Shown here in pieces: positions 28,534-45,267 of a stretch of 64,000 nucleotides of DNA; position 1 is the first letter of the stretch, and every line of letters starts with the position of its first letter. This stretch comes from Brucepastera parasyntrophica (GTDB lineage: Bacteria > Spirochaetota > Spirochaetia > Treponematales > Treponemataceae). A program made the position numbers and the translations under genes. The notes beneath the pieces are model-generated. The model saw nothing but the letters and a program-made list of their open reading frames with translations, searched no databases and was not told the origin of the DNA. The DNA lies in NCBI RefSeq assembly GCF_022376835.1, contig NZ_CP084606.1, forward strand, positions 248,001-312,000. The letters are read 5' to 3'.

Positions 28534-29264
28534 TCAGGGGACGCCAAACCGCTGCGGCGGCCAGTACCGGAACAGGACCTTTCCCTGTATTCTATGGGAA
28601 GGAATAGCACCCCATATACGGGAATCACTTGCAGTTATTCTGTTATCGCATAAGACAAAATACTCATTTTCCTGCAGTGTTATTTCAGGAAAAGAAGACG
28701 CAAACGGGAGAGCGTCCGTCCATTCATCGGGCAGACGTTCCTGCTTAATGTCATATTCTTTTTCGGTAATTTCAAATTCGGTCAGATAATGGGCCGCTCC
28801 CGCAGGTTTAATGTATAAAATGAAATCATTCATATACAGCGAATCGCCCGGAAAGCCGACAAGCCTTCTAACAGTCGGCATTTCACCCCAATTGTTGTTG
28901 CTGAATGGAGAAATTCTCTGGAATGTTACAAATGAAACCAGAAAATTTGCCAGCCTGGTAATAAGCAGCGTATCGGCGGAATATGTGGAAGAAATGACCA
29001 CAAGATCCCCCGCTCAGATGATAAAAAAGGTGAAATGCCGGAGTCCGGATTTTCCTGTGTTTTGTATAAGGGAGTTGTAATAATAAACTCGCCGGAATAG
29101 ATAGTCGGCTCCATGGTTACCGAATCTACAGTATAGTTTGTTATCAGATAAGTACGCAAAACCGCGAATAAAATCATTAATACAATAAAAACGATTAATA
29201 TGGTAAACAGCACCTGACGTTTTTTCTTCTGGTCCGCATACGAATATCTTCTTTTTGTTGCCAT
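28534..29264 (-). CDS. signal peptidase I-like protein with altered catalytic dyad (frameshifted)
   Basis: LepB/S26 family. Basic N-terminus, one membrane segment (VLFTILIVFIVLMILFAVL), then box B TVDSVTMEPTI, box D TVRRLVGFPGD and box E CDNRITASDSRIWG. The family signature puts the nucleophilic Ser at the Thr of SVTM and the general-base Lys at the first Arg of RRLVG, so both catalytic residues are replaced. G5 (minus strand, near 29012) must be G6 to rejoin the two frames (SSERGDLVVISS), giving 243 residues. AGAGAGGG precedes the ATG. Either inactive, or a divergent paralogue of a true LepB elsewhere. Confidence 0.85.
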
Positions 29265-29900: not shown

Positions 29901-30771
29901 ATGAAGACAAAGAGATTCGGACTGTTTTTTGTATTATTTTTTTCCCACATATGCGCATTTGCGCAAAATGTACCGGTAGTAGCGGTATACGCGCTGCGGT
30001 CAAATGATGTCGGAGAAAATATTACCGCAACTGTAAATGATCTTATTTTCTCTTTTATCAAGGAATTACGGAATTATCAGGCAATTGATATGCGTTCGGA
30101 AGCCTGGCCCCGGACATGCGGGTCCCCGAAGGTGTCGATTATATTTTTTACGGTTCATTAATGAGCAAACCGGAGGGTATCCAGCTCGAAATCGTATTAA
30201 AGGGCGGACCCTATACGGTAACCAGGCTCATTTCGCGCGTTTATGAGAATTCCAACCGTATACTTCTTGAATCCCGGCTCCTTGTACGGGACCTTTTCGA
30301 CCTGTCAATCTCGCTTCCCGACCCCGAACCCGCTTCACAGGTGACGCCTCAGACAGCAGAAACCCCTCCGCCTCCCGATACGCGTGAATTGGTCCCAGTG
30401 ACAAATATCGACTCCCTTGCCGGTTCATGGAGCGGTGAAAATGATGTGGAAAAAATAATGATTCTGCGCGGCGGACGGGGTGTCGTAGTCCTTTCCAGCG
30501 GGTATCCCTGTCCCTTGAGTTTGTCCTTTCAAACAATGAACTTATTGTGCGCCAGAAGGGAGCCTCATCGCCCCGGCAGTTTGTAGACCTTCCCGATCCG
30601 GTCGCAAAGCAGGCCGTAAACATAGCGCCGCCGCTTGAATGGCGCTTTATGATAACCCCGGATCAGAAAGTGCTGGTCGGAAATAAAAGAACAGTTTTAA
30701 TTCATAATGACGGAAAAAATATCCTTTCGATGGAAGGCATCATAGTAGATGAAGTCTGGACACGGAATTAA
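29901..30771 (+). CDS. exported protein of unknown function (two frameshifts)
   Basis: A signal peptide (FGLFFVLFFSHICAFAQ, signal peptidase I type; no proper lipobox) is followed by a beta-rich periplasmic or surface protein. Three frames must be joined: one base is missing near 30110 (TGGCCCC) and one near 30500 (probably GGG to GGGG, giving GVSLSLEFVLSNNELIVRQK). The corrected length is 290 residues. A Pro-rich linker (ETPPPPDTREL) separates two parts; the second (LAGSWSGENDVEKIMILRGG) looks like a small beta-barrel or lipocalin-like repeat, but I cannot name a family. It is 26 bases after smpB. Confidence 0.65.
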
Positions 30772-30777
30772 CCGCTG

Positions 30778-31344
30778 CTATTCAAGATATTCACCGGGAA
30801 CAGTCACATCTCCCTGCCTTAAAATGCGGTATTTTTCTCCGGTTATATCAACTATGGTTGAAGCCGCGGGAAACCGGTAGTCCCCATCATCGACAATCAG
30901 GTCGGCAACATCACTGAATTCCGCAATAATCTCCCCGATCGCGTGCAGCGGGCTTTCACCTGAGCGGTTCACGCTTGTCGAATATATGGGCGTCCCTGTT
31001 TTTTCAATAACTTCCCTGAGCCAGGCGCAGTCCGGACAGCGGAAGGCAGTTGTTCCGCCTGTTTTATTGCGGATTATCAGCGTCAGGGCCGCAGGCCACA
31101 TATTCAGCAGACCGGCTGGAATTATGTTATCGGTATAATGAAAAATATCTTCCGGATGCGCAAGCAGCTGTATGAACGGCTTGCCCTCATCCCTCCCCTT
31201 CGCGGCGATAATAAGCTGCTCGGAACCGGGGACTGTCCCGGAAAACCCGTACATTGTGTCTGCGGGAAGAATAACAAGCTTGCCTGCTTTTAAAAAAGCG
31301 GCGGCGGTTTCAGCGGAATCAGATGAGTTCTTCAAGATTATCAT
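30778..31344 (-). CDS. Sua5/YrdC/TsaC-type threonylcarbamoyl-AMP synthase
   Basis: Makes threonylcarbamoyl-AMP for t6A37 of ANN-decoding tRNAs. The YrdC domain is clear: AAFLKAGKLVILPADTMYGF, KGRDEGKPFIQLLAHPED, WPAALTLIIR, YSTSVNRSGESP and STIVDITGEKYRILRQG. About 188 residues from the ATG at 31344. As sequenced the frame continues upstream into the DivIC-like protein (to 31788), but one extra A in a nearby A7 would end that protein at 31319, just past this ATG. I therefore treat it as a separate gene, coupled by overlap; no ribosome binding site is seen before the ATG. Confidence 0.8.
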   Translation of the reverse strand: MIILKNSSDSAETAAAFLKAGKLVILPADTMYGFSGTVPGSEQLIIAAKGRDEGKPFIQLLAHPEDIFHYTDNIIPAGLLNMWPAALTLIIRNKTGGTTAFRCPDCAWLREVIEKTGTPIYSTSVNRSGESPLHAIGEIIAEFSDVADLIVDDGDYRFPAASTIVDITGEKYRILRQGDVTVPGEYLE

Positions 31345-31779
31345 ATTTTTTGTGCTTTTTTTCAGATTGACTGTTATGCATATAAAAAATACCAAAAGTC
31401 CCGAAATAATCCCGAACAATTTGCAAATCCATTCAGGCACATATTCAGGCTTTGCCGTAATAATAGGCTCGCCCGCATATACTTTCCGGTCAATCCCTCC
31501 GGAAAAACCGGCAAGCTTTATAAGATATTCGTCTTCGGCAACATATCCGAGTTCATGGGCATATACACTTATAGTGTCGAGATCAGCAGTCAGATTTCTG
31601 AATTTAATATCAAGATCAGTATTTATTGTATACAGATAATCAAGATGCTGCTCCAGCCGGTCTTTTTCCTGGGAAAGCTGCTCCATAGCCCAAATTCCCC
31701 GCGGACCGAAACAGACACTCATTACACAGTATATAAGCGTACCCGCAAAAACAGGCAGCACAATTTTAAGCCACTTCAT
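31319..31779 (-). CDS. DivIC/FtsB-like membrane protein
   Basis: About 150 residues: an N-terminal membrane segment (LKIVLPVFAGTLIYCVMSV), a short coiled coil (EQLSQEKDRLEQHLDYLYTI), a small extracytoplasmic domain and a second hydrophobic segment (LFGIISGLLVFFICITV). The first part resembles the FtsB/DivIC septum-initiator family, which bridges FtsL and FtsQ; the second segment is unusual. The C-terminus given assumes A8 instead of A7 near 31370, yielding KKKHKKYDNLEELI and a stop at 31321-31319. As written, the frame is fused to the Sua5 domain. The start is either the ATG at 31779 or a TTG at 31788. Confidence 0.6.
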
Positions 31780-31913
31780 ACCCTTCAAGATACGGCAAAA
31801 AACTGCAAAATCTTGAATTTTATTGACAGGAGAACGGGTCTGATATTAAAGTTAATAATAAAGAAAAAAATGCCGATAAACTAGTGAATAATTATAATCT
31901 CGGGGAGCAGCTA

Positions 31914-34900
31914 ATGACATCCGATTATGAGAATAATGATATAAATGATGACTCTTTTGATAATGACTTGTCTGATATAACAGAAACACTTGATATGTAT
32001 GGAGTATGGGTCAAGAGCGGTCCCCGTGATGTGGATGAGGATATTACAGACCCGGCTGGGATCCCGATTGATACCGGTTTGTCCGATTCCGACTTTTCCG
32101 AGCTTCCCGACTTTGATGACTCTTTTGACACGTCCGAAACTGAAAACGGTATGGCATCCGCTGAAACAGCTGTTCCGCCGGAAGAAAATGAACTTCCGGA
32201 AACTGCGCCGGATTCTGTCAGTGACAGCGCCGATTTTGAATTTGATGATTCCGCAGATATGGCTGAAACAATCAGTTTTGATGATTCCATAATAGACAGT
32301 ACCGAAACAATCAATATTGAAGAACCGGCTGAATCCGGGCAGGACTTTACGGAAGCCCTGCATACAGATGATTTTTCCGAAATTCAGGCCGATGATGATG
32401 ATGTATTTCCCTCCCCCGAAACCGAACCTGAAGTTTTGTCTGAAAACCTGAGTTCCGGACATTCCGATACCGAATATGCCAGCGGAAATATAGCGGAAGA
32501 TACCATTGATGAAAAAACCCTGATCAGCAATGAATCCCTCGATGATATTACCCTTGATGAAATTGTCCTTGATGATTTCAGCGATGAAGTAAACAGTGTT
32601 GAGGAAACCGTTCTGGAAACTGCAGACACTGCTCTGAATGAAGACAAAGATGCCGAAGAAGCCTTTGATTTTGATATAGATGATACCGCCGGCGAGTTCG
32701 AGTTGCCGGATATTGTCGAATCAGATGAAATTACGGAAGAAATCACCATTCCGGTGGCCTCGGAAACCGAAACCGTTTCCGGAACGGATACAGATATCAC
32801 GGAGGAGATATCCCTTGATAATATAGGCGAACCCGAAGAAACCGAGGAAGAAAGCACTGCCCCGGCTTTTACGGAAGCCGAGTCCATTTCAGATGCGGAT
32901 ATAACAGAAGAAATATCCTTTGATGATATAAATGAAACTTCAGACGATACTATTGCGGCATCCTCAGAATCCGGTACCGTTTCAGATATGGATACCGCTG
33001 ATATCACTGAAGAAATATCTTTTGACGATATAGCCGGTATCAGCAGCCCGGCAGCGGACTCATCAGCCGGCGGAGAAACTGAAGAACTGAGTCTGGATGA
33101 CTTTCTGGATGATTTTAATGCGGACGGCGCTTCTTCCGGCGGCGGCGATGACCTTGATCTTGATGATTTTATCGACGCGTTTAATGATTCGGGCGGCATA
33201 ACTGTTGACGACCAAAATGATAAACTTTTCTCGGACAGTGAACCGGTCGATCTTGAACTCGAATTTGATGAGGACTTCATTGCAGAAAAACACGGAACAG
33301 AGGAATCAGTTGACACCCTTATGTCAGTTGCCGAGGATGACTTCTTTGACCTGAGCGAAATTCCTGACATGGCCGAGGAACCAAAGGCAGACGGAAAAGC
33401 TCCGGCGGCTTCCGCCGAGGTCGGAATTTCCGAAGATGTAACCGAATTCGATGATCTGCTTGATCTTCTTGACGAAACAAATGCTCCTGCGGCTACTTTG
33501 AAAGGCCAAAGCGCCGAAAAACAGGAACACAATTACGATCTTAATGTTACTGAAGAAGATAAACTCAGCTCAGTATCATCCGCAGTAAGTGAAAGCTCGG
33601 ATGAAGATATTTCCGTTCCGCTTTTTGATTCAAAAACGACCGGATATGTCCAGTCAACAAAAAAAGCTGATAATACTGTATCGGTCGTTAACAGTGACTT
33701 TGCTTCGGAACTGAACAGTCTTCTGGAAATAGTGGAAGACACCCCTGCTCCCGAAGGAAAAAAACAGCCGGAAAATACCGGGGAAACAAACCCGGACAGT
33801 GAGACAGATGAAACCTCAATTTCAGAAGAACAGGACAATGAGGCTGTGGAAGCTGCCCCGCAAACCGAGCCTGAGGAAGATGAACCCATAGAAATTGACA
33901 ATACGTTTGCAGATGATACAGTTGAAGATATTGTCTCTCCGGATGAAATAAACGGAGAGCCTGAAGCGGAAACGGAAGATAATACGGAAGCATGGACAGA
34001 TGAGACGCCCGTAGTTTCTGAAACAGTCATTGATGAATTTGACGACGAAATCACCCCGGTTCCGGAACTTCATTCTGAAATTGAAGAACCCGGATCCAGT
34101 GACACTGAAGTACATGATGAGAGTGCTTCCATACCTGAAGAAACAACAGGAAATTCCGAAGAATTTCATAACATTGAAATAAAAGATGAGGACATTGAAA
34201 TGCTTCCCGATTTTGAAAAAGTAGAAAATGATGATTTGAATTCCTTTATTCCGGACCAAAACGAACCGGAAACATCTTTTGAAAGCAGTATCATTGAAGA
34301 AGAAAGTCTGCCTGATGATACAATTTCTGAAGATAATACGGTTTTTGATGATTTCAGCGGAGAAGTAAACAGTATTGATGAAACAGACATTGGCGCGGGT
34401 GAGGAAATTAAACTTGCGGACGATGATGACTTTGAAATGCCGGATTTCACAAAATCCTACGGGGAGGAAGATGACATTATTCCTCTTCCTGATTTTGATG
34501 ACGAACCTGTTGATACCGGTACTCTTTCGGGACAGACGGCCTTTACGGAAACAGGCGTAGCGCTTAAAGACGGAACCGGCCGGGTCCGCGAACCAGGAGC
34601 ATTGTCGGCAGAACCCTTGCCAAAAATGGAAGAAACGGAAAACAAAACCGAGGAAAAACTTGCTATTCCGGAAATTACCGATTATAATGAACAAACTGAA
34701 TCCCGACAGGACAATTCAGACACGGAGGAGCATGTGTCTCTTGATTTTGATGATATTGGCGCTTTAGAAAGGGACTTGCATGATGATATGCCGGAAGAAG
34801 AGGAAACAATGACATCAAATGATAAATCAACCGAGCTGTTAATGGTAATTGCGGAAGAGCTTTCTTCAATTAAAAAGGAAATATCCACATTAAAAACGGA

Positions 34901-36095
34901 ACTTGCCAACCAAAGACCGGCGCCTCTTGCCGAACCATGTGATCCTGATCAGGGAATTGCAGAAAATGGTGAAAGTTCCGGCTTTTTCAGTGATGATGAT
35001 TCTGATGAAACAATTGCCCTAACCGGTGATGAACTGAATAATATTCTTATTACTGCAGACTTTACTGAAGAAAAAAATGACAGCGCGGAAGCAGAAACCC
35101 CGGATGAAAGCCAGACTATTGTTTCCGAATCTGCTCCGTCTGAAGAAAATGAACCGGACCTGCAGACTAACCTTCTGGACGATACCTTTGCCGAAACTGA
35201 CCTGCTGGCAGGAGAATCCGGACCCGAGGAAGGCGACCCGTCTTTTGAAGAAAATGAATTCCTTCTAGCGGAACCTGAAGATAATGATTCGGAAGGTTCA
35301 ATTCCCATGGAAGAAGCTGATCTCGAGACAATCGATTTTGCTGATGAAGAACTTGAAGAACCCGTGCTGGATGATTTTAATCTTGATATACCCGATATTC
35401 AGACCGAGGCTGAAGCTGACAACGAAGCCACAGATGATGATCTGGATGAGTTAGACAAGATAAATGATATTTCCGATATAACCTTTGATTTCGGGAATTT
35501 GGAGCTGGAAGATGACGGTGAAACTTCTGTAACTGAAACCCATGAAGCCAAAGAAAGCCTTCCGGATGATCCGGCCGGCGAAGAATTGCTTGAGTCTCCG
35601 GAAATGATGGAAGAAGAAATTGTACTTCCCGCAGAGACTGATATGCCGGCGGATGCCGTAACCGAAACCCAGGAAGCTGAGGAAAGTATCCCGGCTGATT
35701 TGTCCGGGGAAGAATCTCCGGAAACGGACATTGTACCCTCTGTTGATGCAGTGATGGAAATTCCGGATATGCCAGTATCGGAAGACTCAATTGATATCCT
35801 GTCTGTCCCTGCAGAACAGGCCGGTGAACAGATAGAAGAAACGGTACCGGCAGAACCTCCGGAAATTGTCCCGGAGGACGCTGAGACGGAATCCGAAAAG
35901 ACCCTCGTATCAGATGATTCCGCTCCTTCCGGGGTTGCAAGCCTTCCGGGCGAGCTGAAAGATGAAATAAAATCGGTTTTGTCCTACATGGACCAGCTTC
36001 TTGAAAGTCTGCCTGAAGAAAAAATTGAGGAATTCGCACGCTCGGAACACTTTGAAGTGTACAAGAAGCTTTTTGATGAACTTGGTATTTCCTGA
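31914..36095 (+). CDS. giant acidic, repeat-containing disordered protein
   Basis: About 1393 residues dominated by Asp, Glu, Ser and Thr, with no signal peptide or membrane segment. Degenerate repeats such as DITEEISFDDI and DDFLDDFNADG recur, mostly in the first third. One short coiled coil (LLMVIAEELSSIKKEISTLK) lies near residue 975, and a folded helical C-terminus (PGELKDEIKSVLSYMDQLL ... EHFEVYKKLFDELGIS) ends it. The start at 31914 is preferred over a GTG at 31884 because GGGGAG is 7 bases upstream. It heads a five-gene operon; the folded ends suggest a cytoplasmic tether or scaffold, which is inference. No family recognised. Confidence 0.8.
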   Translation: MTSDYENNDINDDSFDNDLSDITETLDMYGVWVKSGPRDVDEDITDPAGIPIDTGLSDSDFSELPDFDDSFDTSETENGMASAETAVPPEENELPETAPDSVSDSADFEFDDSADMAETISFDDSIIDSTETINIEEPAESGQDFTEALHTDDFSEIQADDDDVFPSPETEPEVLSENLSSGHSDTEYASGNIAEDTIDEKTLISNESLDDITLDEIVLDDFSDEVNSVEETVLETADTALNEDKDAEEAFDFDIDDTAGEFELPDIVESDEITEEITIPVASETETVSGTDTDITEEISLDNIGEPEETEEESTAPAFTEAESISDADITEEISFDDINETSDDTIAASSESGTVSDMDTADITEEISFDDIAGISSPAADSSAGGETEELSLDDFLDDFNADGASSGGGDDLDLDDFIDAFNDSGGITVDDQNDKLFSDSEPVDLELEFDEDFIAEKHGTEESVDTLMSVAEDDFFDLSEIPDMAEEPKADGKAPAASAEVGISEDVTEFDDLLDLLDETNAPAATLKGQSAEKQEHNYDLNVTEEDKLSSVSSAVSESSDEDISVPLFDSKTTGYVQSTKKADNTVSVVNSDFASELNSLLEIVEDTPAPEGKKQPENTGETNPDSETDETSISEEQDNEAVEAAPQTEPEEDEPIEIDNTFADDTVEDIVSPDEINGEPEAETEDNTEAWTDETPVVSETVIDEFDDEITPVPELHSEIEEPGSSDTEVHDESASIPEETTGNSEEFHNIEIKDEDIEMLPDFEKVENDDLNSFIPDQNEPETSFESSIIEEESLPDDTISEDNTVFDDFSGEVNSIDETDIGAGEEIKLADDDDFEMPDFTKSYGEEDDIIPLPDFDDEPVDTGTLSGQTAFTETGVALKDGTGRVREPGALSAEPLPKMEETENKTEEKLAIPEITDYNEQTESRQDNSDTEEHVSLDFDDIGALERDLHDDMPEEEETMTSNDKSTELLMVIAEELSSIKKEISTLKTELANQRPAPLAEPCDPDQGIAENGESSGFFSDDDSDETIALTGDELNNILITADFTEEKNDSAEAETPDESQTIVSESAPSEENEPDLQTNLLDDTFAETDLLAGESGPEEGDPSFEENEFLLAEPEDNDSEGSIPMEEADLETIDFADEELEEPVLDDFNLDIPDIQTEAEADNEATDDDLDELDKINDISDITFDFGNLELEDDGETSVTETHEAKESLPDDPAGEELLESPEMMEEEIVLPAETDMPADAVTETQEAEESIPADLSGEESPETDIVPSVDAVMEIPDMPVSEDSIDILSVPAEQAGEQIEETVPAEPPEIVPEDAETESEKTLVSDDSAPSGVASLPGELKDEIKSVLSYMDQLLESLPEEKIEEFARSEHFEVYKKLFDELGIS

Positions 36096-36097
36096 GT

Positions 36098-37034
36098 ATG
36101 GGTTTGATTGATAAGGCTTTTTTGGCAGCAAAAAAGCCGGAACCCGTTTCTGAAAAAAAAACGGGCTGCTGTACAGGATTGTTTCCGCCTCCTATTATGA
36201 CAGGGTGCTTGATCTTTTCCGCTTATGTCTTAAAAATATGTGTCTGGAAAGAGGGACATTATTTTTTTCAGACGCCGGAAATACGCTTGTCCCGGTTATA
36301 TCGGAAGGTTTTGACTTAACTACTTTCAGACGGTTTGTTCCAGTGCAGGATGATTTCACGGAATTGCTGGACAAACCGGACGCCCTGTATTCCTTTGAGA
36401 ATGAAAATCTTTCACAGTTTGGTGTTTTTTTTCTACGCGGGAAAGAAACAGTCTCAAAGGTCTGTATGTATACCCGTTTATGATCGGTTCATATTCCGGT
36501 TATCTTGTATTCGCTGATTCACTTCTGGATAAAAACAGAGAAAAAAAAATTACTGTTCAGAGTTCTGAATTTGCGGATTTGCTGCGTCTATTGCATAATC
36601 CTGAAACCTCACAGCTCATCCCCGACCCTCCTGCTGTATTCAAAAAAGCTGATGCAGTACGGTGGTCGCAGGTAAACAATGAGCTGTCAGGCGGAAAACA
36701 AGCTGTGCTTGTTACCGTTTCATTTTCATCACTTTTTTTTGCGCATGATAAAATACAGATGGAACCGGAAAAGCTCATAATATATGAGGCAATTGTCCGG
36801 CGGATTGCCCGCAGGCTGGGACCGGCTAATATACTCACAGCTGACCGGAACGGGACTCTTCATATTGCGATTTTCAGCACTCTCGATACTGATATCAATT
36901 TGTATTTTGAATCAATAATTTCATCTCTGACAAAACTGTACGGCGATTACCGCATCTCTCACATTGATATACAGAAAATAAAAACTGCTTCAACTGCAGC
37001 AGAAGTGATGGTTTTTTTAGATGGGGACTTCTGA
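36098..37034 (+). CDS. unknown cytoplasmic protein (two frameshifts)
   Basis: Three frames join if A9 near 36153-36161 is read as A10 (EKKNGLLYRIVSASYYDRVL) and one A is added near 36458 (SKGLYVYPFMIGSYSGYLVF). The corrected protein is 312 residues, starting MGLIDKAFLAAKKPEP. It ends with a mixed alpha/beta region (PANILTADRNGTLHIAIFST) that could be a remnant of a nucleotide-cyclase-like or GAF/PAS-like fold; I cannot assign a family. It starts 2 bases after the acidic gene and overlaps the first DUF115 gene by 14 bases, so it is part of that operon. Confidence 0.65.
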
Positions 37035-38511
37035 TCTTCCCCGCCGGCTTCATTCAAAATATAATCCGCAAAAAGAAGCCTCCAGATATATTGAATCACT
37101 GGATATTTCTTTCAAGCCCAGATTTGTTGTCGTTACTGAACCCGGCGAGTCTTTTCTTGCGTCCGTCATTCGCAGTGTTTATCCTGATTCAAAAATAATT
37201 GCAATCCGTTACCAGGATGAGTATTTTGAAGAATCAGACAACTTGTGGGACGCAGTCTGGAGACCGCTTTCGGGAGGAGATGTCGGAACTTTTCTTTTTA
37301 ACTTGATACCGGATGAGCTGATCCCTCTTACCCTGTTTTTGCCATGGAAACCCTCTGATACATTCTGGCCTGAAAAAGCTGAAATGGTATGGCATAGTAT
37401 TGCCTCATTGTTCCGCCTGCAAAAGAGTATCATGTATACCAGAACACATTTCGGGAAAAGATGGTTTTCAAATATGATTGCGAATAGTCTGTCATTCCGG
37501 ACTATTCTGCAGCCGGTATATACCCGCAAACCGGTTTTACTCGCCGCGGCGGGACCTTCACTGGAAAAAATTCTTCCGACGGATAGGGAATTGAGAGAAA
37601 ATATATTTTTATGCGCTGTTTCATCGGCGGTGTCCTGTCTTGCCGCGCATAATTGTGTTCCCGATCTCTGTATTGCAACCGACGGCGGGTATTGGGCAAA
37701 AATGCTTTTCCAAAATCTGGCAGAAACGGTCCCGGTAGCAATTCCCATGGATGCCGCCGTTCCGTCAGGCTTATGTGACAGAAATCCTATACTTCCGCTT
37801 AGTTACGGAAGTCACCTTGAAAGCAAACTTTTTGACCTTTGTGGTATTACACCTGAAAAGGCAGTCAGAAACGGTTCAGTCGCGGGAACGGCGGCGCTCT
37901 ACGCTCTTTCGCATACCTGTTCAAATGTATACGCTGCGGGGCTTGATCTCTCCGTTTCAGATTCATTTTCTCACGCTCGTCCTCATCCTTCCGATGTTCT
38001 GTATGAAACCACTTCTGACAGATTTTCTCCGCTCCAGACAAAATTGACTGGTGATAATTTTCAGAATCTTTCTCTCGGAATGTACGCCGACTGGTTTTCA
38101 TCACGAAAGCAGGATTTTAAAGAGCGATTTTTCCGCCTGAACCCGTCCGGGACAGTTTTGCGGGGTATTCAGTCTGCGACAACCGGCGATATTCCCCATA
38201 TGGCAGATAAAACGGAAAAGGATAAAAGTCTGACATTCCAGTCTATATTGTCCGAACCGGAACGGAAGGAAAAAATTGCCGGCTGGTTATCCGGCCTTTG
38301 CGATTCCCTTGAGTCTGAAACAGACGCTATTTTTCATGAACCTGTTTTTCCGGAAATCTTTCAATTGGTGTCCTATACCGATTATATACAGCTCCTGAAA
38401 AAAGAGCGGGAACCGACAGGCGCCGCCGAATATACGGTACTATATGCTTCACTGGCAAAAAAAACCGTTTCTTTTTTACGGAAACTTAAAGAAAGGACCG
38501 GATATAAATGA
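37021..38511 (+). CDS. DUF115 (Maf/MptE-like) protein, paralogue 1
   Basis: 496 residues. The central domain has the DUF115 signature VLLAAAGPSLEKILP (about residues 176-190), then CVPDLCIATDGGYW and later NGSVAGTAALYALSH and VYAAGLDLSV. DUF115 includes the Maf motility-associated factors that attach nonulosonic acids to flagellin in some bacteria, and archaeal 6-hydroxymethylpterin diphosphokinase (MptE). Treponemal flagellins are known to be glycosylated, so a Maf-like role is a reasonable hypothesis, not shown here. The next gene is a diverged copy and overlaps by 4 bases. Confidence 0.75.
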   Translation: MGTSDLPRRLHSKYNPQKEASRYIESLDISFKPRFVVVTEPGESFLASVIRSVYPDSKIIAIRYQDEYFEESDNLWDAVWRPLSGGDVGTFLFNLIPDELIPLTLFLPWKPSDTFWPEKAEMVWHSIASLFRLQKSIMYTRTHFGKRWFSNMIANSLSFRTILQPVYTRKPVLLAAAGPSLEKILPTDRELRENIFLCAVSSAVSCLAAHNCVPDLCIATDGGYWAKMLFQNLAETVPVAIPMDAAVPSGLCDRNPILPLSYGSHLESKLFDLCGITPEKAVRNGSVAGTAALYALSHTCSNVYAAGLDLSVSDSFSHARPHPSDVLYETTSDRFSPLQTKLTGDNFQNLSLGMYADWFSSRKQDFKERFFRLNPSGTVLRGIQSATTGDIPHMADKTEKDKSLTFQSILSEPERKEKIAGWLSGLCDSLESETDAIFHEPVFPEIFQLVSYTDYIQLLKKEREPTGAAEYTVLYASLAKKTVSFLRKLKERTGYK

Positions 38512-40064
38512 TACCCAGTCTGCAAAAAAATCTTGCCGCCCTTGAAAAAAAAGACAGAAACCTCGCTGACTGTATCCGTTTGTCAGCACCGGACGGGACA
38601 TATAAGGAAATTGCTGTTTCGAAAACCGGTGTGCCTGTTCCGGTCTTTTGCGACGGCACCGCGGCCCATTCACTTTATAATCCTGTCGGTGAAGCAAAAA
38701 AAATATGGGATACAATGGATATCTCCGGCGCATTTATTCTCTTCGCAGGAATCGGCGGCGCTTATCATATCCGCGAATATCTGGCCCGTTTACCAGACAT
38801 GTCCTGTATTATTGCGGAGCAGTCACCGGCGTCCCTGAAGTCATTGTTTGAGATTATCGATCTTTCGGATATTCTTGCGGATCCCAGGGTTTCACTTTTG
38901 ACTTTTTCATCGGACAATTTTGTACAGAGTTTAATGAACGTGTATCTTCCCGTTTTATACAAAAAATTCCAAATACTTCCTTTGCGGCCCTGGCTGAGCT
39001 TTACGGGAATTTCGCCGGAAGATATCGAAGGGAAATGCAGTGACGCGCTTAAAGTAATATCAGCGGATTTTTCAGTCCAGGCCCATTTCGGAAAAATATG
39101 GATGAGGAATATTTTTCTTAATTTAAAAACGGCGGCCATGCATCAGAAAAAAGCGCCGGATTTCAGCAGGGAAAAAACAGCATATATCGCGGCGGCCGGC
39201 CCTGGTCTCGAACGTGACATTCCGAAGCTCCGCAGCCGGAGGGATTCATATATCCTGTTTTCAACCGATACTGCGTGGAATACGCTTGCTTCATATAATA
39301 TTATTCCTGATGTATTTATCAGTATTGATGCCCAGGCAGTATCTGTTCTTCATGCCGTCAGGGAGTTCGGCGGGAATATGACTGTTATTCTTGATCTGTG
39401 TGCTAATCCTGACATCGCGTTTCGCGCGCTGACTTCCAATACGGATATTATTTTTGCGGCCGGTGGACATCCGCTCGCGCGTTATGCGGCAGCTTATGCT
39501 CCGCTTCCCCTGCTCGATACTTCAGCTGGAACAGTTACCGGAGCGGCGCTTGACGCGGCCTGCTCCCTGGGTTTTAAAAAAATTGAATTCGGGGGAGCCG
39601 ATTTTGCTTATACGGACGGGAAGCCCTATGCCAGGGGTACCTATTTATCAGATACTTATGGAACACGTTCAGACAGACTGAACCCGGAGGAAAATCTTTT
39701 TACCGGTTTAATGTTCCGCACTCCGGTACGGGCCATAAAGACAGAAAACGGAATAATCTATTCTACACAAATTCTGGACAGCTACGCGGAATCATTGAAA
39801 CAGTATAAAAATACGCACCAATGGAATACATCCGATTTCCGTAATTTTCCTTTTGAAGAATTTGTCAGGGATTATCAGTGTTCTTTAGAAACTATGCTGT
39901 ATAACAGCAGGCTGGAAAAAACATCCGTGTTTTATTCACTGCTGCCTTTTGCGGCATGGTACAGGATAAAACACGGAAATACTTACGGACAAAATACTGT
40001 GAAAGAAGCGTTTGAGCTTGCACTTAAATTAATTGAGAGGTATACTTTAAATCATGAAGGATAA
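38508..40064 (+). CDS. DUF115 (Maf/MptE-like) protein, paralogue 2
   Basis: 518 residues with the same layout as its upstream neighbour: an N-terminal Rossmann-like part (GAFILFAGIGGAYHIREYL), the DUF115 domain with AYIAAAGPGLERDIPKL (about residues 222-238), NIIPDVFISIDAQAV, and SAGTVTGAALDAACSLGFKK then EFGGADFAY. The Ser of GPSL in paralogue 1 is Gly here. The tandem pair probably arose by an old duplication; sequence identity is low. Its stop overlaps the start of the degenerate-GGDEF gene. Confidence 0.75.
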   Translation: MIPSLQKNLAALEKKDRNLADCIRLSAPDGTYKEIAVSKTGVPVPVFCDGTAAHSLYNPVGEAKKIWDTMDISGAFILFAGIGGAYHIREYLARLPDMSCIIAEQSPASLKSLFEIIDLSDILADPRVSLLTFSSDNFVQSLMNVYLPVLYKKFQILPLRPWLSFTGISPEDIEGKCSDALKVISADFSVQAHFGKIWMRNIFLNLKTAAMHQKKAPDFSREKTAYIAAAGPGLERDIPKLRSRRDSYILFSTDTAWNTLASYNIIPDVFISIDAQAVSVLHAVREFGGNMTVILDLCANPDIAFRALTSNTDIIFAAGGHPLARYAAAYAPLPLLDTSAGTVTGAALDAACSLGFKKIEFGGADFAYTDGKPYARGTYLSDTYGTRSDRLNPEENLFTGLMFRTPVRAIKTENGIIYSTQILDSYAESLKQYKNTHQWNTSDFRNFPFEEFVRDYQCSLETMLYNSRLEKTSVFYSLLPFAAWYRIKHGNTYGQNTVKEAFELALKLIERYTLNHEG

Positions 40065-41475
40065 ATTCATTGCTGGATACAGTGTTGTTGCCTTTTGTAT
40101 CTTACTTGCAACTATTTTATGGTTTACCCTTTCCATACACAGGGAAATCCAAACCGGAACCGTTGAAGCGGAACGTACTTTTACATGGATATCACGTGAG
40201 ATTGTTTCAGCATCATATACCGAAGGCTTTTTAAGCAGCAGTTTTTATGAAAAGATTGTTGGAGTATGCAGAAATTCCCGCCTGCTGAATGCGCTGGTTA
40301 TTTCCACACCGGTCGGCGGCCCCGTTTTTCTGTGGCCTGATAATTCTCCGGCCATCGCTTATGATGTGACTGGAAGGCCCTATATAACCGAAACGTCTCC
40401 CTTTATGAAAAATCACAGCGCCAACATAGAAATTGACAGCGGTCAGAATTCCGGAACATTTACAGTGACCGCGGTTTTATACGTTTTGCATCCTGATGTT
40501 ATATATAATACCAGCAAAAACTGCTTTTTTGTTATATCTGTTCTTTTTCTGGCAACTCTGATTGTTATTCTCGCAAATTCATCAAAGAAAAAAGCTCCGG
40601 CAAATATAAACCGCAAAACAGGGCTTGATATTACGGAAGATATTTCACTTAAACCCGTTGCGCCGGTCATACAGGCCCCCGTTCAGGAAAAACCCGCGGA
40701 AGTCATCAGTCCGGAACCTCCTGAACCGGCAGCGGAAGTATCCGTAAATCAGGAAATAAAAGAACCTCCAGTACCTGATATTGCTGAAACGCCCGTTGAA
40801 GATATCCCTGCCGAACCTCCGGTGGAATCCACAGTTGAATCCGTTCAGCAGCCCCAGCCTGTGGAAATCGATACGGTTGCTGATGTTCATGCCGATTCTG
40901 AACCTGAATCAGGTAATGAAAATGCCGCAGAACCGGAACCAAAACGGAATGAGCCTGCCGAACCTACAGGTCTTTTTTCACCAACAACGGGAATAGGATG
41001 GGAGCAGTATCTTGAAGACAGACTTGATGCGGAGCTGGTCCGGGCGGCTTCGTCTGAACAGGATTTGTCTCTGATTATAATACGGATACCGGAACATGAT
41101 GAAGCAGAAAATTTTTCGAAGAACATTTCCCGGCTTCTTCTTGATACATTCAAATTCAGGGACATGCTTTTTGAATTTGGTCCGGACAGTTTTGCCGTAA
41201 TTCTGCAGAACATGAATCTCGATCAGGCAATGAAAACCGCCAACACTCTGTTCAGTGATTTAAGTCTTCTGCTTGAAGAAATGAATATTTCCGGAAAAGT
41301 TTCAATAGGCATAACGACCAGAACAGGAAGACTTCTTCCTGCGTACCGCATGATTGAAGAAGCTTATAACGCATCGAAGAAAGCGGACGGGGAGGAAAAC
41401 CTGCCCATAGTTGCGTTCAGGGCGAACCCGGAAAAATACCGTTCGTTTGTTGCCGAGCAGGAAGAAGTATTATAA
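40054..41475 (+). CDS. membrane protein with degenerate GGDEF domain
   Basis: 473 residues: membrane segment (about 8-27), an extracytoplasmic sensor-like region of about 125 residues, a second segment (about 155-176), a long Pro/Glu-rich linker (about 205-305), then a GGDEF-fold domain. Where active diguanylate cyclases have GGDEF the domain reads FGPDSFAVIL (after FRDMLFE), so catalysis is not expected, and I see no inhibitory RxxD site in the usual place. It is likely a signalling or structural receiver. Last gene of the operon; its 3' end overlaps the convergent DUF4340 gene by 6 bases. Confidence 0.75.
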   Translation: MKDKFIAGYSVVAFCILLATILWFTLSIHREIQTGTVEAERTFTWISREIVSASYTEGFLSSSFYEKIVGVCRNSRLLNALVISTPVGGPVFLWPDNSPAIAYDVTGRPYITETSPFMKNHSANIEIDSGQNSGTFTVTAVLYVLHPDVIYNTSKNCFFVISVLFLATLIVILANSSKKKAPANINRKTGLDITEDISLKPVAPVIQAPVQEKPAEVISPEPPEPAAEVSVNQEIKEPPVPDIAETPVEDIPAEPPVESTVESVQQPQPVEIDTVADVHADSEPESGNENAAEPEPKRNEPAEPTGLFSPTTGIGWEQYLEDRLDAELVRAASSEQDLSLIIIRIPEHDEAENFSKNISRLLLDTFKFRDMLFEFGPDSFAVILQNMNLDQAMKTANTLFSDLSLLLEEMNISGKVSIGITTRTGRLLPAYRMIEEAYNASKKADGEENLPIVAFRANPEKYRSFVAEQEEVL

Positions 41476-42339
41476 TTCTTCAAATACGCTGTCTATTTTT
41501 TCCTTTGCCCATCTGCTGATTATATAAGCGGACCCCGGAATAAGGCTTGTTGTCATAATAGTATTTTCTCCGTCCAATTCAGCAAAGTGTATAGTTATTA
41601 CTTCAGTATTACCCATTTCAAGAATTATTTCTTCCTGAGGCATCATAGGTACATTTGTAATATCCAGGCACTGAAGTTTTTGAAGTACCGTTCCAAGCTC
41701 TTCAGGCTGCGGATCCCTGCCCGCCCGGAATTCTTTTTTTTCATTTTCTTTATTTACGATAAGCCGCTGAATATTGCCCTTATCCTGCAAAGTACTGAAA
41801 GGTGTAAGATTGACCCAGTATGAAGCCCTGGGATTCAAAAAATGTGAATAGGTATCATCCGTTCTGAATATTTTTTTTTCATTGCCCGATATCAGAAAAA
41901 TTGACTCGCCGGTAATATCGGTATCTCCGAATGCAGCCGAAGAAATTATAGCATGTTGGGCATTGAAAAATTGTACATGCACGGTATCCGGGCCGGATAG
42001 TCCATAATTCAGTAAATCAGTCCCGATGATTACGGAAGCTTTTTTTCTTCCGGAAAACTCCTCAAACAGACGTTCAATTCTATTGTCATCCGCCGGATAG
42101 CGCGCGCCCAGATCCAGAAACCATTTACCGTTTTCCCGCAATAAATGTATCGGGAAAGAAAAAGAAGGAGAATCAATCAGGATTTCCGTTACGGTTTTTG
42201 CGTTTTTTTGCGGGAGTAATGTTATATAAGTGACATTTCCTTTCCGTGAAGAATTATAAAAAATGTATACGGAAACAGTAAAAACGAGGAATACGGAACA
42301 GAGTATCAAAAGAAGCTTTACTGCATTCACAGATTTCAT
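41470..42339 (-). CDS. DUF4340 protein of the Gld-type ABC system
   Basis: 289 residues: an N-terminal signal anchor (LLLILCSVFLVFTVSVYIFY) followed by an extracytoplasmic domain of the DUF4340 family (NGKWFLDLGARYPADDNRIERLFEEFSG; YWVNLTPFSTLQDKGNIQRL). DUF4340 proteins are usually encoded with GldG-like proteins, as here, where the start overlaps the gldG-like stop by 4 bases. A role as an accessory of the ABC system is inferred from context; no catalytic motif is seen. Confidence 0.8.
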   Translation of the reverse strand: MKSVNAVKLLLILCSVFLVFTVSVYIFYNSSRKGNVTYITLLPQKNAKTVTEILIDSPSFSFPIHLLRENGKWFLDLGARYPADDNRIERLFEEFSGRKKASVIIGTDLLNYGLSGPDTVHVQFFNAQHAIISSAAFGDTDITGESIFLISGNEKKIFRTDDTYSHFLNPRASYWVNLTPFSTLQDKGNIQRLIVNKENEKKEFRAGRDPQPEELGTVLQKLQCLDITNVPMMPQEEIILEMGNTEVITIHFAELDGENTIMTTSLIPGSAYIISRWAKEKIDSVFEEL

Positions 42340-43823
42340 TTTCCGGTCCTGCGCTTTCTGATGAATTTCAGACTTGTCAATACAATAATCAGAACAGGAA
42401 GTATAATAATATTAGTAAGAACGGCAGTTCGTAATAAATCGGAGCTTTCGACAGCCGCATCAAGCGGCTGCATCTGGTAATTCTCGCCGTCTTTTTTCAG
42501 TTCAAGAAGCGAATCCTTCCCTGATATCCACTCAATACAATTTACCAGAAAATCAAGATTGGTATCACTTGCCGTATATTCAATCAGACTGCTTATCATA
42601 TATTCATCAGGAAACACGATAATCCTGTTTCGGCTTTCCGAAAAAGCTCCAAGATGTTTTACTGATTTTTCTCCTGAAGAAAAGAGGGAGAGCTGGTTCC
42701 CGAATGGATTTGTATCAAACGGTTCAGACATAGTAAATGCGGCTGGAGTTGTTGAAACAAGGGGGAGGAAATTATGGGTCCCGGGTATTAGCATGAGAGG
42801 AGATGGCCAGAAAAACTGGAGCGCGGGGATGCCGGCAAATATTTTTTTCTGCCGGCCTTCCGCAAAACTGCCCGAAATTATCCAGAAGGGATAATTTATA
42901 TATTCATACCGCGTACCGTCAAGAGAAGGCATTGTCATCCTGAAATTGGAAATATCAAGAAGTAGTTCCTGTTCTATTCTGATGCCGATTGTTTCAAGAT
43001 ATGATAAAAATATATCATCTTCCTTCCGGTATGATTCCCAGTCCGTTGCCGTATTTACCGTTGTTCCGGAAACAAAAAAAACGGAACTCCCCCCGTCCCT
43101 GATAAACTGTTCTATTGCACTTACAGTCTGATAATCAAGCAGTGAAGAACCGATCACCAGAAGCGGAACCGATACATCAAGGTCCTTTGCCGGAAGCGGG
43201 ATATTCCGCACTTGAAAGCCCGCATAGGAAAGCCAGGGTTCTACATAGCTGTATTCATCAGACAAACCCGACGGCCGGCTTCCGTAAATAATCCCGACTG
43301 AGTTTTTTTCCGTTCCGTCTTTCAGTTCCAGTATCAGACGGGTCAGATCATATTCAAGCGTATTTGTATCAATAAAAAACGGAATTATCTGGTGCCTGTT
43401 TTTGTATTCGATGAGGAGTCCTGAATACAGCTCACGGAAGGTCCTGCCGTCATTTTCCAGAATTTCTATTTGCCGGGGAATCATTCCAAGCGATTGAATA
43501 GTATTTGTTTTTCCTGCTGCGGCAGGATCAACAATTGAGTATACAAAATGACCTTTGCCGTAATTGCGGTATTCCTCAAGAAAATCCTGTATATACCGCG
43601 CCGCCGGAACAAGTTTTTCAAGCATTCCGGAACAATACCAGGTCACCGTGACTTCGGAATCAAGATCAGCCAGAACTGTCCGCGTATACGGTGAAATTGA
43701 ATATATCTTATTTTTTGTCAAATCAGCACGGAAATATATACGCAGCGATAGCACAAATAATATCAAAAGAAGGGAAAAAACAAGGATGTCTCTTATAATG
43801 GATTGTCTTTTTATCGTCTGCAT
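42336..43823 (-). CDS. GldG-like ABC-system protein
   Basis: 495 residues with a membrane segment at each end (ILVFSLLLILFVLSLRIYF and AVLTNIIILPVLIIVLTSL) around a large extracytoplasmic GldG/IFT52-like domain (KNKIYSISPYTRTVLADLD, DPAAAGKTNTIQSLGMIPRQ, VPLLVIGSSLLDYQTVSAIE). In Bacteroidetes GldA, GldF and GldG serve gliding motility; spirochaetes carry the homologues without gliding, with unknown cargo. Overlaps the permease gene by 13 bases. Confidence 0.85.
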   Translation of the reverse strand: MQTIKRQSIIRDILVFSLLLILFVLSLRIYFRADLTKNKIYSISPYTRTVLADLDSEVTVTWYCSGMLEKLVPAARYIQDFLEEYRNYGKGHFVYSIVDPAAAGKTNTIQSLGMIPRQIEILENDGRTFRELYSGLLIEYKNRHQIIPFFIDTNTLEYDLTRLILELKDGTEKNSVGIIYGSRPSGLSDEYSYVEPWLSYAGFQVRNIPLPAKDLDVSVPLLVIGSSLLDYQTVSAIEQFIRDGGSSVFFVSGTTVNTATDWESYRKEDDIFLSYLETIGIRIEQELLLDISNFRMTMPSLDGTRYEYINYPFWIISGSFAEGRQKKIFAGIPALQFFWPSPLMLIPGTHNFLPLVSTTPAAFTMSEPFDTNPFGNQLSLFSSGEKSVKHLGAFSESRNRIIVFPDEYMISSLIEYTASDTNLDFLVNCIEWISGKDSLLELKKDGENYQMQPLDAAVESSDLLRTAVLTNIIILPVLIIVLTSLKFIRKRRTGK

Positions 43824-44539
43824 CTTCGGTATCTCAAAAAAATTGTATTTGCGTATAAAAGCATCAGCGCAGGAATTATAAAAAAGACCAGGTCCCTGCT
43901 GTCCAGTATACCCCGCGAGGCTGTTTCAAAATGCCAGGCAAAGGAAAACCATGTGCAAAGAGCCGCCGCACTGCCCGGCATGGATATCAATTGCGGCAGC
44001 AAGTGAATGGTATTGAATAATAAAAGAACGGCCGCCGAACAAATAAAGGAAATTGCCGGAAACGAAAACAGGGCTGAAAAAAATTGGCCAAGGCTGAGAC
44101 ACAAAAATCCCGCAAGAAAAAGAGCAGTGTATGTGGTAAAAACGGTCCCCGCTTCCTGAAAGGGTAAAAAGATGACAACCGGCACTGTCATAAGCAGTAA
44201 AAACAGATATGTCAGCAGCTGGGCGGAGAACTTTCCCGCAACAAGCAGCCAGTCATTTACAGGTAATGCAAACAGTATCAGTTCCGTTTCTTTTTTTCTT
44301 TCATCCGCCCATATATTCATTGTCAGTGCCGGAAAAATCAGCACGGATAGCAGCGGGAAGGAAGCAAAATATTCCTTCAGCGCAAAATCTGAAACAAATT
44401 GAAAGCGGCGGAAATAGAAAAAAGGAATTCCCGTACCCAGCAGAAAAAAAAGCGAGGCAAGCGAAAAAACCAGAGAGGAAAAAACCTGTTTTAATTCTTT
44501 CGTAAGCAATACGGTAAATTGATACAAAGATTTTTTCAC
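43811..44539 (-). CDS. ABC-2 type permease, GldF-like
   Basis: 242 residues with six predicted membrane segments and no signal peptide. The first cytoplasmic stretch (YQFTVLLTKELKQVFSSL) and the motif NIWADERKKETELILFALPV, found in ABC-2/GldF permeases, are present. It overlaps the ATPase gene by 4 bases (ATGA) and the gldG-like gene by 13. Confidence 0.85.
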   Translation of the reverse strand: MKKSLYQFTVLLTKELKQVFSSLVFSLASLFFLLGTGIPFFYFRRFQFVSDFALKEYFASFPLLSVLIFPALTMNIWADERKKETELILFALPVNDWLLVAGKFSAQLLTYLFLLLMTVPVVIFLPFQEAGTVFTTYTALFLAGFLCLSLGQFFSALFSFPAISFICSAAVLLLFNTIHLLPQLISMPGSAAALCTWFSFAWHFETASRGILDSRDLVFFIIPALMLLYANTIFLRYRRCRR

Positions 44540-45267
44540 TGTCCGGCTCCATTGCTTTTTCGTACGAGATGGATAAAGGCGTCTTCTATCGATTTTTTCC
44601 CTGTTTTTGCATATATCTCGTCAAAGGGCCCCTGCATGAGCACGCCGCCTCTGTTAATCATAATAGCAGAATCGCAGAGAAGCTCCACCTCCTGCATTAT
44701 ATGGGTGGAAATAATAACCGTTTTACCGGATGCGTATTCGCGGATAATTTTCCTGAATTCGTCAATCTGAAGGGGATCCAGGCCATTTGTCGGCTCATCA
44801 AGGATGAGTATGGATGGGTTATGAACAAGAGCCGCAGCCAGGCCTGTTCTTTGCCTGAATCCATGAGATAATTCCTTTATGGGCCGCTGAAGCACTTCAG
44901 CTAAGTTATATTTTTTTATACATGCTGATACTGATTCAATGCTGTCTTTATGTGAAAGTCCATACATTTTCGCAATAAACAGGAGATATTCCTGAACAGT
45001 CTGATCAGTATAAAGCGGATTATTCTCGAATACAATTCCGATTTCCGACCGGGCCTGTATAGGATCGGTAAACATATCATAGCCGTTCACCGTTACAGTA
45101 CCGGAGTCCGGAAAAATAACGCCCGCTGCAATTTTCAGTATCGTTGATTTGCCAGCGCCATTCGGTCCCAAAAGAGCCGTAACAGTCCCCTGCCGGAGCC
45201 GGAATGAAATGTCGGTACAGGCGGCAATATTTCCGTATGATTTTGAAATATTTTTGACCTGTATCAT
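44536..45267 (-). CDS. ABC ATPase, GldA-like
   Basis: 243 residues. Walker A GPNGAGKST, Q-loop VFENNPLYTDQTVQEYL, signature LSHGFRQRTGLAAAL (a common variant of LSGGQ in this exporter group), Walker B ILILDEPTNGLDPLQ and H-loop STHIMQEV. It energises the GldF-like permease. It begins 6 bases after rnz, so the four ABC-system genes are probably transcribed from the rnz promoter. Confidence 0.9.
   Translation of the reverse strand: MIQVKNISKSYGNIAACTDISFRLRQGTVTALLGPNGAGKSTILKIAAGVIFPDSGTVTVNGYDMFTDPIQARSEIGIVFENNPLYTDQTVQEYLLFIAKMYGLSHKDSIESVSACIKKYNLAEVLQRPIKELSHGFRQRTGLAAALVHNPSILILDEPTNGLDPLQIDEFRKIIREYASGKTVIISTHIMQEVELLCDSAIMINRGGVLMQGPFDEIYAKTGKKSIEDAFIHLVRKSNGAGQ

Follow-up and report, generated by a model that had tools for sequence, protein, structure and literature searches.

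A five-gene operon in Brucepastera parasyntrophica, at positions 31914–41475 of the window (the whole 64,000-nucleotide stretch of DNA analysed here), probably encodes a module for O-glycosylation of the flagellin FlaB, a variant of the Maf systems; judging from sequence comparisons, we give this reading a probability of roughly 60%. The module would be cytoplasmic and would serve the flagellins of the periplasmic flagellum (FlaBs). In the proposed mechanism, the Maf-type proteins MafA and MafB would take a nonulosonic-acid-type sugar from its activated donor and attach it, ahead of export, to conserved serines of FlaB, with the NeuB/SpsE-family synthase for the donor encoded elsewhere in the genome and MafB responsible for the serine of the DRIAS motif. 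The giant acidic protein ACID would be a long disordered tether, with the Mafs, FlaB, and export or chaperone proteins as partners that dock on its N-terminal motif, its coiled-coil/GFF block and the helical domain at its C-terminus. G2 and GGD would be enzymatically inactive and have a regulatory or anchoring part, either keeping the complex at the membrane or passing on a signal. We infer the transfer activity, the identity of the sugar and the assignment of each Maf to a site. Modification of FlaB before export is proposed by analogy; in Aeromonas, Maf glycosylation comes before chaperone binding (PMC4065374). Assembly and motility in Treponema denticola require the 450-Da glycan carried by its FlaBs (PMC9481697), so the identity of the transferase matters.

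As the original prediction described, all five genes run in one direction, on the + strand, and each abuts or overlaps the next. The first, ACID (31914..36095, +; alternative GTG start at 31884), encodes a giant acidic, low-complexity and disordered protein of 1393 aa. It is followed by G2 (36098..37034, +), by MafA (37021..38511, +; 496 aa) and MafB (38508..40064, +; 518 aa), two DUF115/MptE-like (PF01973) Maf-type proteins whose genes join in an ATGA overlap, and by GGD (40054..41475, +), a membrane protein with an extracytoplasmic segment, an acidic/proline linker and a degenerate GGDEF domain. The block of five is thus present as predicted, except that its second gene is broken in this assembly: G2, a single gene for a GAF plus degenerate GGDEF protein in relatives, carries two frameshifts, and tblastn with the intact G2 proteins of relatives (~315 aa) runs through three successive frames, the joins falling in an A9 homopolymer (~36150) and a T8 homopolymer (~36423). 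Sequencing or assembly indel errors are the likeliest cause, because the signal peptidase I gene (LepB; 28534–29264, −) is likewise split, into two overlapping frames, and the single-contig genome has a completeness score of just 88%. The DivIC and Sua5/YciO domains, which almost all relatives encode in two neighbouring genes, lie here within one open reading frame (30778–31788, −), either as a real fusion or through a lost stop or indel. A conserved upstream gene (29901–30586, +), presumably T. pallidum TP0183 to judge by its position, encodes ~290–320 aa in relatives and occupies two open reading frames in different frames here.

Gene order around the operon is conserved beyond chance. The MafB query matched 53 of 59 relatives, and the neighbourhoods of the matched relatives show the order ACID–G2–MafA–MafB, mostly followed by GGD, in about 55 loci (a scan of genome contigs gave four loci only); the order recurs across the order and the class, through the Treponema relatives. 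ACID and MafA are separated by 0–1500 nt in 55 of 57 loci, and the median gaps are −8 nt between MafA and MafB (n = 56) and −2.5 nt between MafB and GGD (n = 42). GGD adjoins MafB in most, not all, families; families f3 and f4 showed no GGD in the vicinity of the operon. All five genes are present in a T. pallidum-like genome of 1,139,633 bp; the accessory proteins are retained even at T. pallidum size. The synteny is partly regional, because the upstream neighbours Sua5, DivIC, SmpB and LepB are conserved too. The claim that the five genes act together is supported by this order, which is kept in most swimming spirochaetes, the T. pallidum-like genome among them; we looked for relatives with the genes scattered, which would have spoken against it, and the block held together.

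ACID (151.8 kDa, pI 4.05) consists of 32% D+E versus 3% K+R, and its orthologues in relatives, of 272–1644 aa, lie directly upstream of G2/MafA. Four stretches are conserved: an N-terminal YGVWVK motif (31998..32015, +; consensus [DE]xYGVWVKxxPxD), shared by almost every full-length orthologue in the class and reading CGVWVK in the T. pallidum-like copy; an xLxFDD-like motif; a predicted coiled coil (LLxIAxELSSIKxE) followed by the GFF..DETIALTGDEL block (34836..35070, +, end approximate; GFFxDDDxDETIALTGDELNNIL(I/N)TADFTEE in an alignment of 41 orthologues); and a conserved C-terminal micro-domain of ~45 aa (LKDEIKSVLSYMDQLLESLPEEKIEEFARSEHFEVYKKLFDELGIS; 35955..36092, +), modelled by AF2 as helices. 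The C-terminal domain has 19 invariant columns among 30 sequences and occurs in 198 of 295 genomes of the phylum, 197 of which also carry DUF115; it had no convincing sequence relative in the PDB. It represents a new conserved domain, carried by a disordered protein and present across most of the phylum. From this architecture and the gene order, we tentatively propose that ACID could be a scaffold.

ACID, G2 and GGD could instead form a polar or envelope hub, following a logic like that of FimV/HubP, for basal-body placement or organisation of the export gate, with the DUF115 genes as later passengers in Spirochaetia. This would fit the distant classes, in which the ACID–GAF/pseudo-GGDEF pair occurs without an adjacent DUF115 gene and in some cases has FliS or FapA neighbours, and it would fit the one ACID known without flagella. 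Nevertheless, we consider it unlikely, given that MafA–MafB in Spirochaetia are almost always translationally coupled and downstream of ACID and that a domain search of ACID found no landmark or membrane domain. The ACID without flagella (G216, L096:3878–4510) is an intact 210-aa protein with the N-terminal motif, coil and C-terminal domain, in a genome where no flagellin, DUF115 or SpsE-type synthase was found, which speaks against a strictly flagellar role of ACID. FliS, the flagellin export chaperone, is encoded immediately before ACID in families f31, f38 and f43, all three of them distant, which favours the flagellin reading; in other distant families ACID–GAF is found beside ATP synthase genes, not FliS, which rules out linkage to FliS as a general feature of ACID. 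Four loci of distant relatives (L084, L085, L086 and L087) have the order FliS–ACID–(GAF/pseudo-GGDEF)–FapA-like beta-solenoid protein, the GAF and FapA genes of L085 being non-adjacent.

Returning to the glycosylation module, its two remaining accessory proteins are both predicted to contain degenerate GGDEF domains. G2, listed in the original prediction as an unknown protein, is a GAF plus degenerate GGDEF protein according to its predicted fold. Sequence searches with G2 gave no match, and the protein is very divergent, with almost no conserved residues. Modelled with AF2, the T. pallidum-like orthologue (pLDDT 81.7) matched in Foldseek a GAF–GGDEF cyclase (4zmu, E 1.6e-7) and PelD (4etx, E 2.3e-4), with low full-length TM-scores (~0.25–0.37), single domains matching better than the whole. 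In distant classes, the gene after ACID encodes a recognisable GAF and/or weak GGDEF protein. GGD matches the GGDEF family PF00990 just above the cut-off (26.0 versus 23.8 bits), as diguanylate cyclases would, but their GG[DE]EF active-site signature is replaced, here by GPDSF. The predicted degeneracy extends to all 22 aligned orthologues (GPDSF, GSNGF, GADGF and similar), and GGD is not expected from its sequence to make c-di-GMP. Binding of c-di-GMP through an I-site was dropped as a candidate function of GGD, since RxxD is not conserved in the same alignment. PelD, a c-di-GMP receptor with a GAF and a degenerate GGDEF domain, resembles G2 in the predicted succession of a GAF and a GGDEF-like domain, being among its best PDB matches, and resembles GGD in the loss of the signature; in contrast to PelD, the operon has no Pel polysaccharide genes, the c-di-GMP-binding residues are not conserved in its proteins and the sequences are very divergent. 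Architecture and gene order suggest that the two pseudo-GGDEF proteins are possibly sensors or anchors, a role we hold with less assurance than that of ACID.

The distribution of DUF115 genes follows that of flagellin. Among 295 spirochaete genomes (265 with and 30 without flagellin), a DUF115 gene of any kind was present in all 229 flagellin-bearing genomes outside the Borrelia-like family, in 0 of 36 Borrelia-like genomes and in 0 of 30 flagellin-less genomes. The small-genome Borrelia-like family is the Borreliaceae, to judge by its flagellin sequence among other evidence, and the Borrelia flagellin is reported to be unglycosylated, at least in the secondary account of Sterba 2008 given in PMC6236881. 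Five of the 59 relatives lack flagellin and also lack DUF115; the sixth unmatched genome (59% complete) has flagellin and gave no match to the MafB query. The NeuB-family synthase (PF03102) was found in 58 of the 59 relatives, including the T. pallidum-like genome. The Borrelia-like genomes tested lacked an SpsE-type synthase, as did two operon-less genomes (G035 and G308); flagellin-less genomes had none or only a weak match. The suggested link of the operon to flagellin and nonulosonic-acid genes is therefore borne out at the level of gene content. In one relative (G004), a synthase and a sugar nucleotidyltransferase-like gene lie just upstream of smpB and the operon.

A more specific link to FlaB comes from the flagellin sequences. 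According to a secondary source (PMC7431986), two motifs of T. denticola FlaB, VEVSQL and DRIAS, are reported glycosylation targets, and the serines of both are reported to be substituted in Borrelia FlaB. Both serines are kept in all 91 FlaBs of the 49 genomes with MafB. Two genomes (G126 and G255) have an otherwise intact ACID–G2–MafA–GGD locus from which MafB is missing, and in every FlaB sampled from them the DRIAS serine is replaced by F, N, D or E; in a third (G039), the operon ends after MafA on a continuous contig and the position is occupied by N and D. Borrelia-like FlaBs have D there. Sister genomes with MafB (G281 in f8 and the other f5 genomes) keep the serine. Among the 73 FlaB columns that are invariant in MafB-bearing genomes, a single one is altered throughout the FlaBs of G039 and a single one throughout those of G126/G255, and it is the same column. 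In a leave-one-out comparison, 46 of the 49 MafB-bearing genomes had no such change throughout their FlaBs. The association of MafB with the serine gives a Fisher p of 0.009, a crude value at the level of lineages that we grouped ourselves. This co-variation, found in exploration, is a strong lead. Several genomes keep the DRIAS serine with little or no sign of MafB: G035 and G308, in which searches for ACID, MafA/MafB and the synthase found no operon; G224, G448, G469 and G507, without a strong MafB match; and G353 and G376, with a divergent match (the MafB of G353 family members is divergent but real). Several of the last six are fragmented drafts. A wider search of the class for further MafB-less genomes found no new clean loss, and the extension added no support. 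These sequence patterns make it an even call that MafB acts on the DRIAS serine, and they offer a concrete, testable assignment of an enzyme to a site.

For MafA and the VEVSQL serine there is at most a hint. Most genomes that retain MafA also retain the VEVSQL serine, with Asn in one FlaB of G039, and G035/G308 retain it without MafA. It is replaced by Asn in a Brachyspira-like genome (L120, G067) and by Glu in Borrelia-like FlaBs.

The operon's Maf-like proteins might instead modify another envelope or flagellar component (the sheath protein FlaA, the collar or a polysaccharide), leaving flagellin to other DUF115 paralogues. Each genome has about two DUF115 genes besides MafA and MafB, which could be the real transferases; Brachyspira-like genomes have DUF115 and flagellin, mostly without ACID; and the FlaB serine persists in G035/G308 without the operon. 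We nonetheless judge this quite unlikely, since, of the invariant FlaB columns, the DRIAS serine alone is lost in both of the independently inspected MafB-less lineages, where other DUF115 paralogues are retained, and since MafB matches the flagellin-modification protein PseD, a match that the third paralogue of the T. pallidum-like genome did not give. In B. parasyntrophica itself, a further DUF115 gene (L100:7174–8495) lies in two overlapping pieces of 254 and 204 aa, likely another frameshift.

That the Maf proteins of the glycosylation module act on flagellin is very probable, to judge from their relatives and distribution. MafA and MafB are, by sequence, homologues of Maf/DUF115 glycosyltransferases: they score 50.2 and 89.8 bits, respectively, against PF01973 (curated cut-off, 34.6). 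MptE, after whose archaeal family the Pfam model is named, is a 6-hydroxymethylpterin diphosphokinase, a stand-alone enzyme of ~240 aa in archaeal pterin synthesis. It is very improbable that MafA and MafB are such pterin or other small-molecule pyrophosphokinases without glycosyl transfer: the MptE structure 8sd5 does appear as a secondary match, but the best solved relative of both proteins, by a wide margin, is 5mu5, both have ~500 aa, including extra regions at the N and C termini, and DUF115 tracks flagellin. The control matches to PF01973 came from archaea alone. We take 5mu5 to be the Magnetospirillum Maf structure of PMC11339370. MafB and its T. pallidum-like orthologue match PseD (the latter over PseD residues 75–379), MafB being the closer of the pair to PseD/Maf. 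The Pfam Maf N-terminal domain PF20157 gave no match in either protein at E ≤ 1, and the MafB profile aligned weakly with the N-terminal part of 5mu5. Beyond the weak PseD and GGDEF matches, NCBIfam gave no name for any of the five proteins. The original proposal that the DUF115 pair fits Maf-type flagellin glycosylation has accordingly gained from the flagellin co-occurrence, the 5mu5 and PseD matches, the NeuB-family synthase and the co-variation of MafB with FlaB; no closer kinship to an unrelated enzyme family emerged.

Compared with the Maf/PseD systems of Aeromonas, Campylobacter, Clostridium and Magnetospirillum (5MU5), the operon shares the PF01973 core, the alignment of MafB with PseD and an occurrence that goes with flagellin and with a NeuB-family synthase. 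It differs in that its ~500-aa Mafs have no detected PF20157 domain and form a tandem, non-identical pair away from the flagellin genes, accompanied by a disordered, acidic protein and a pair of pseudo-GGDEF proteins. Caulobacter FlmG, as outlined in PMC7591256, is similar as a modular enzyme for cytoplasmic O-glycosylation of several flagellins, but here any part that recruits the substrate would be a protein of its own, ACID. The fullest version of our model, in which the giant, disordered ACID brings together two site-specific Mafs, flagellin and dead GGDEF sensors at the membrane, with one Maf per conserved FlaB serine and signal-gated glycosylation before export, is doubtful as a whole. 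To our knowledge, and in the literature searched, neither the accessory set nor the apparent one-Maf-one-site relation has been described; the search, which left most subscription journals outside, found no paper naming a Treponema flagellin transferase or the operon. Matches to TP018x in a B. burgdorferi bactofilin paper proved to be primer names and were rejected. Convergent with the operon lies a DUF4340/GldG-like/ABC permease/ATPase gene set (41470–45267, −), which is kept in several, not all, relatives.
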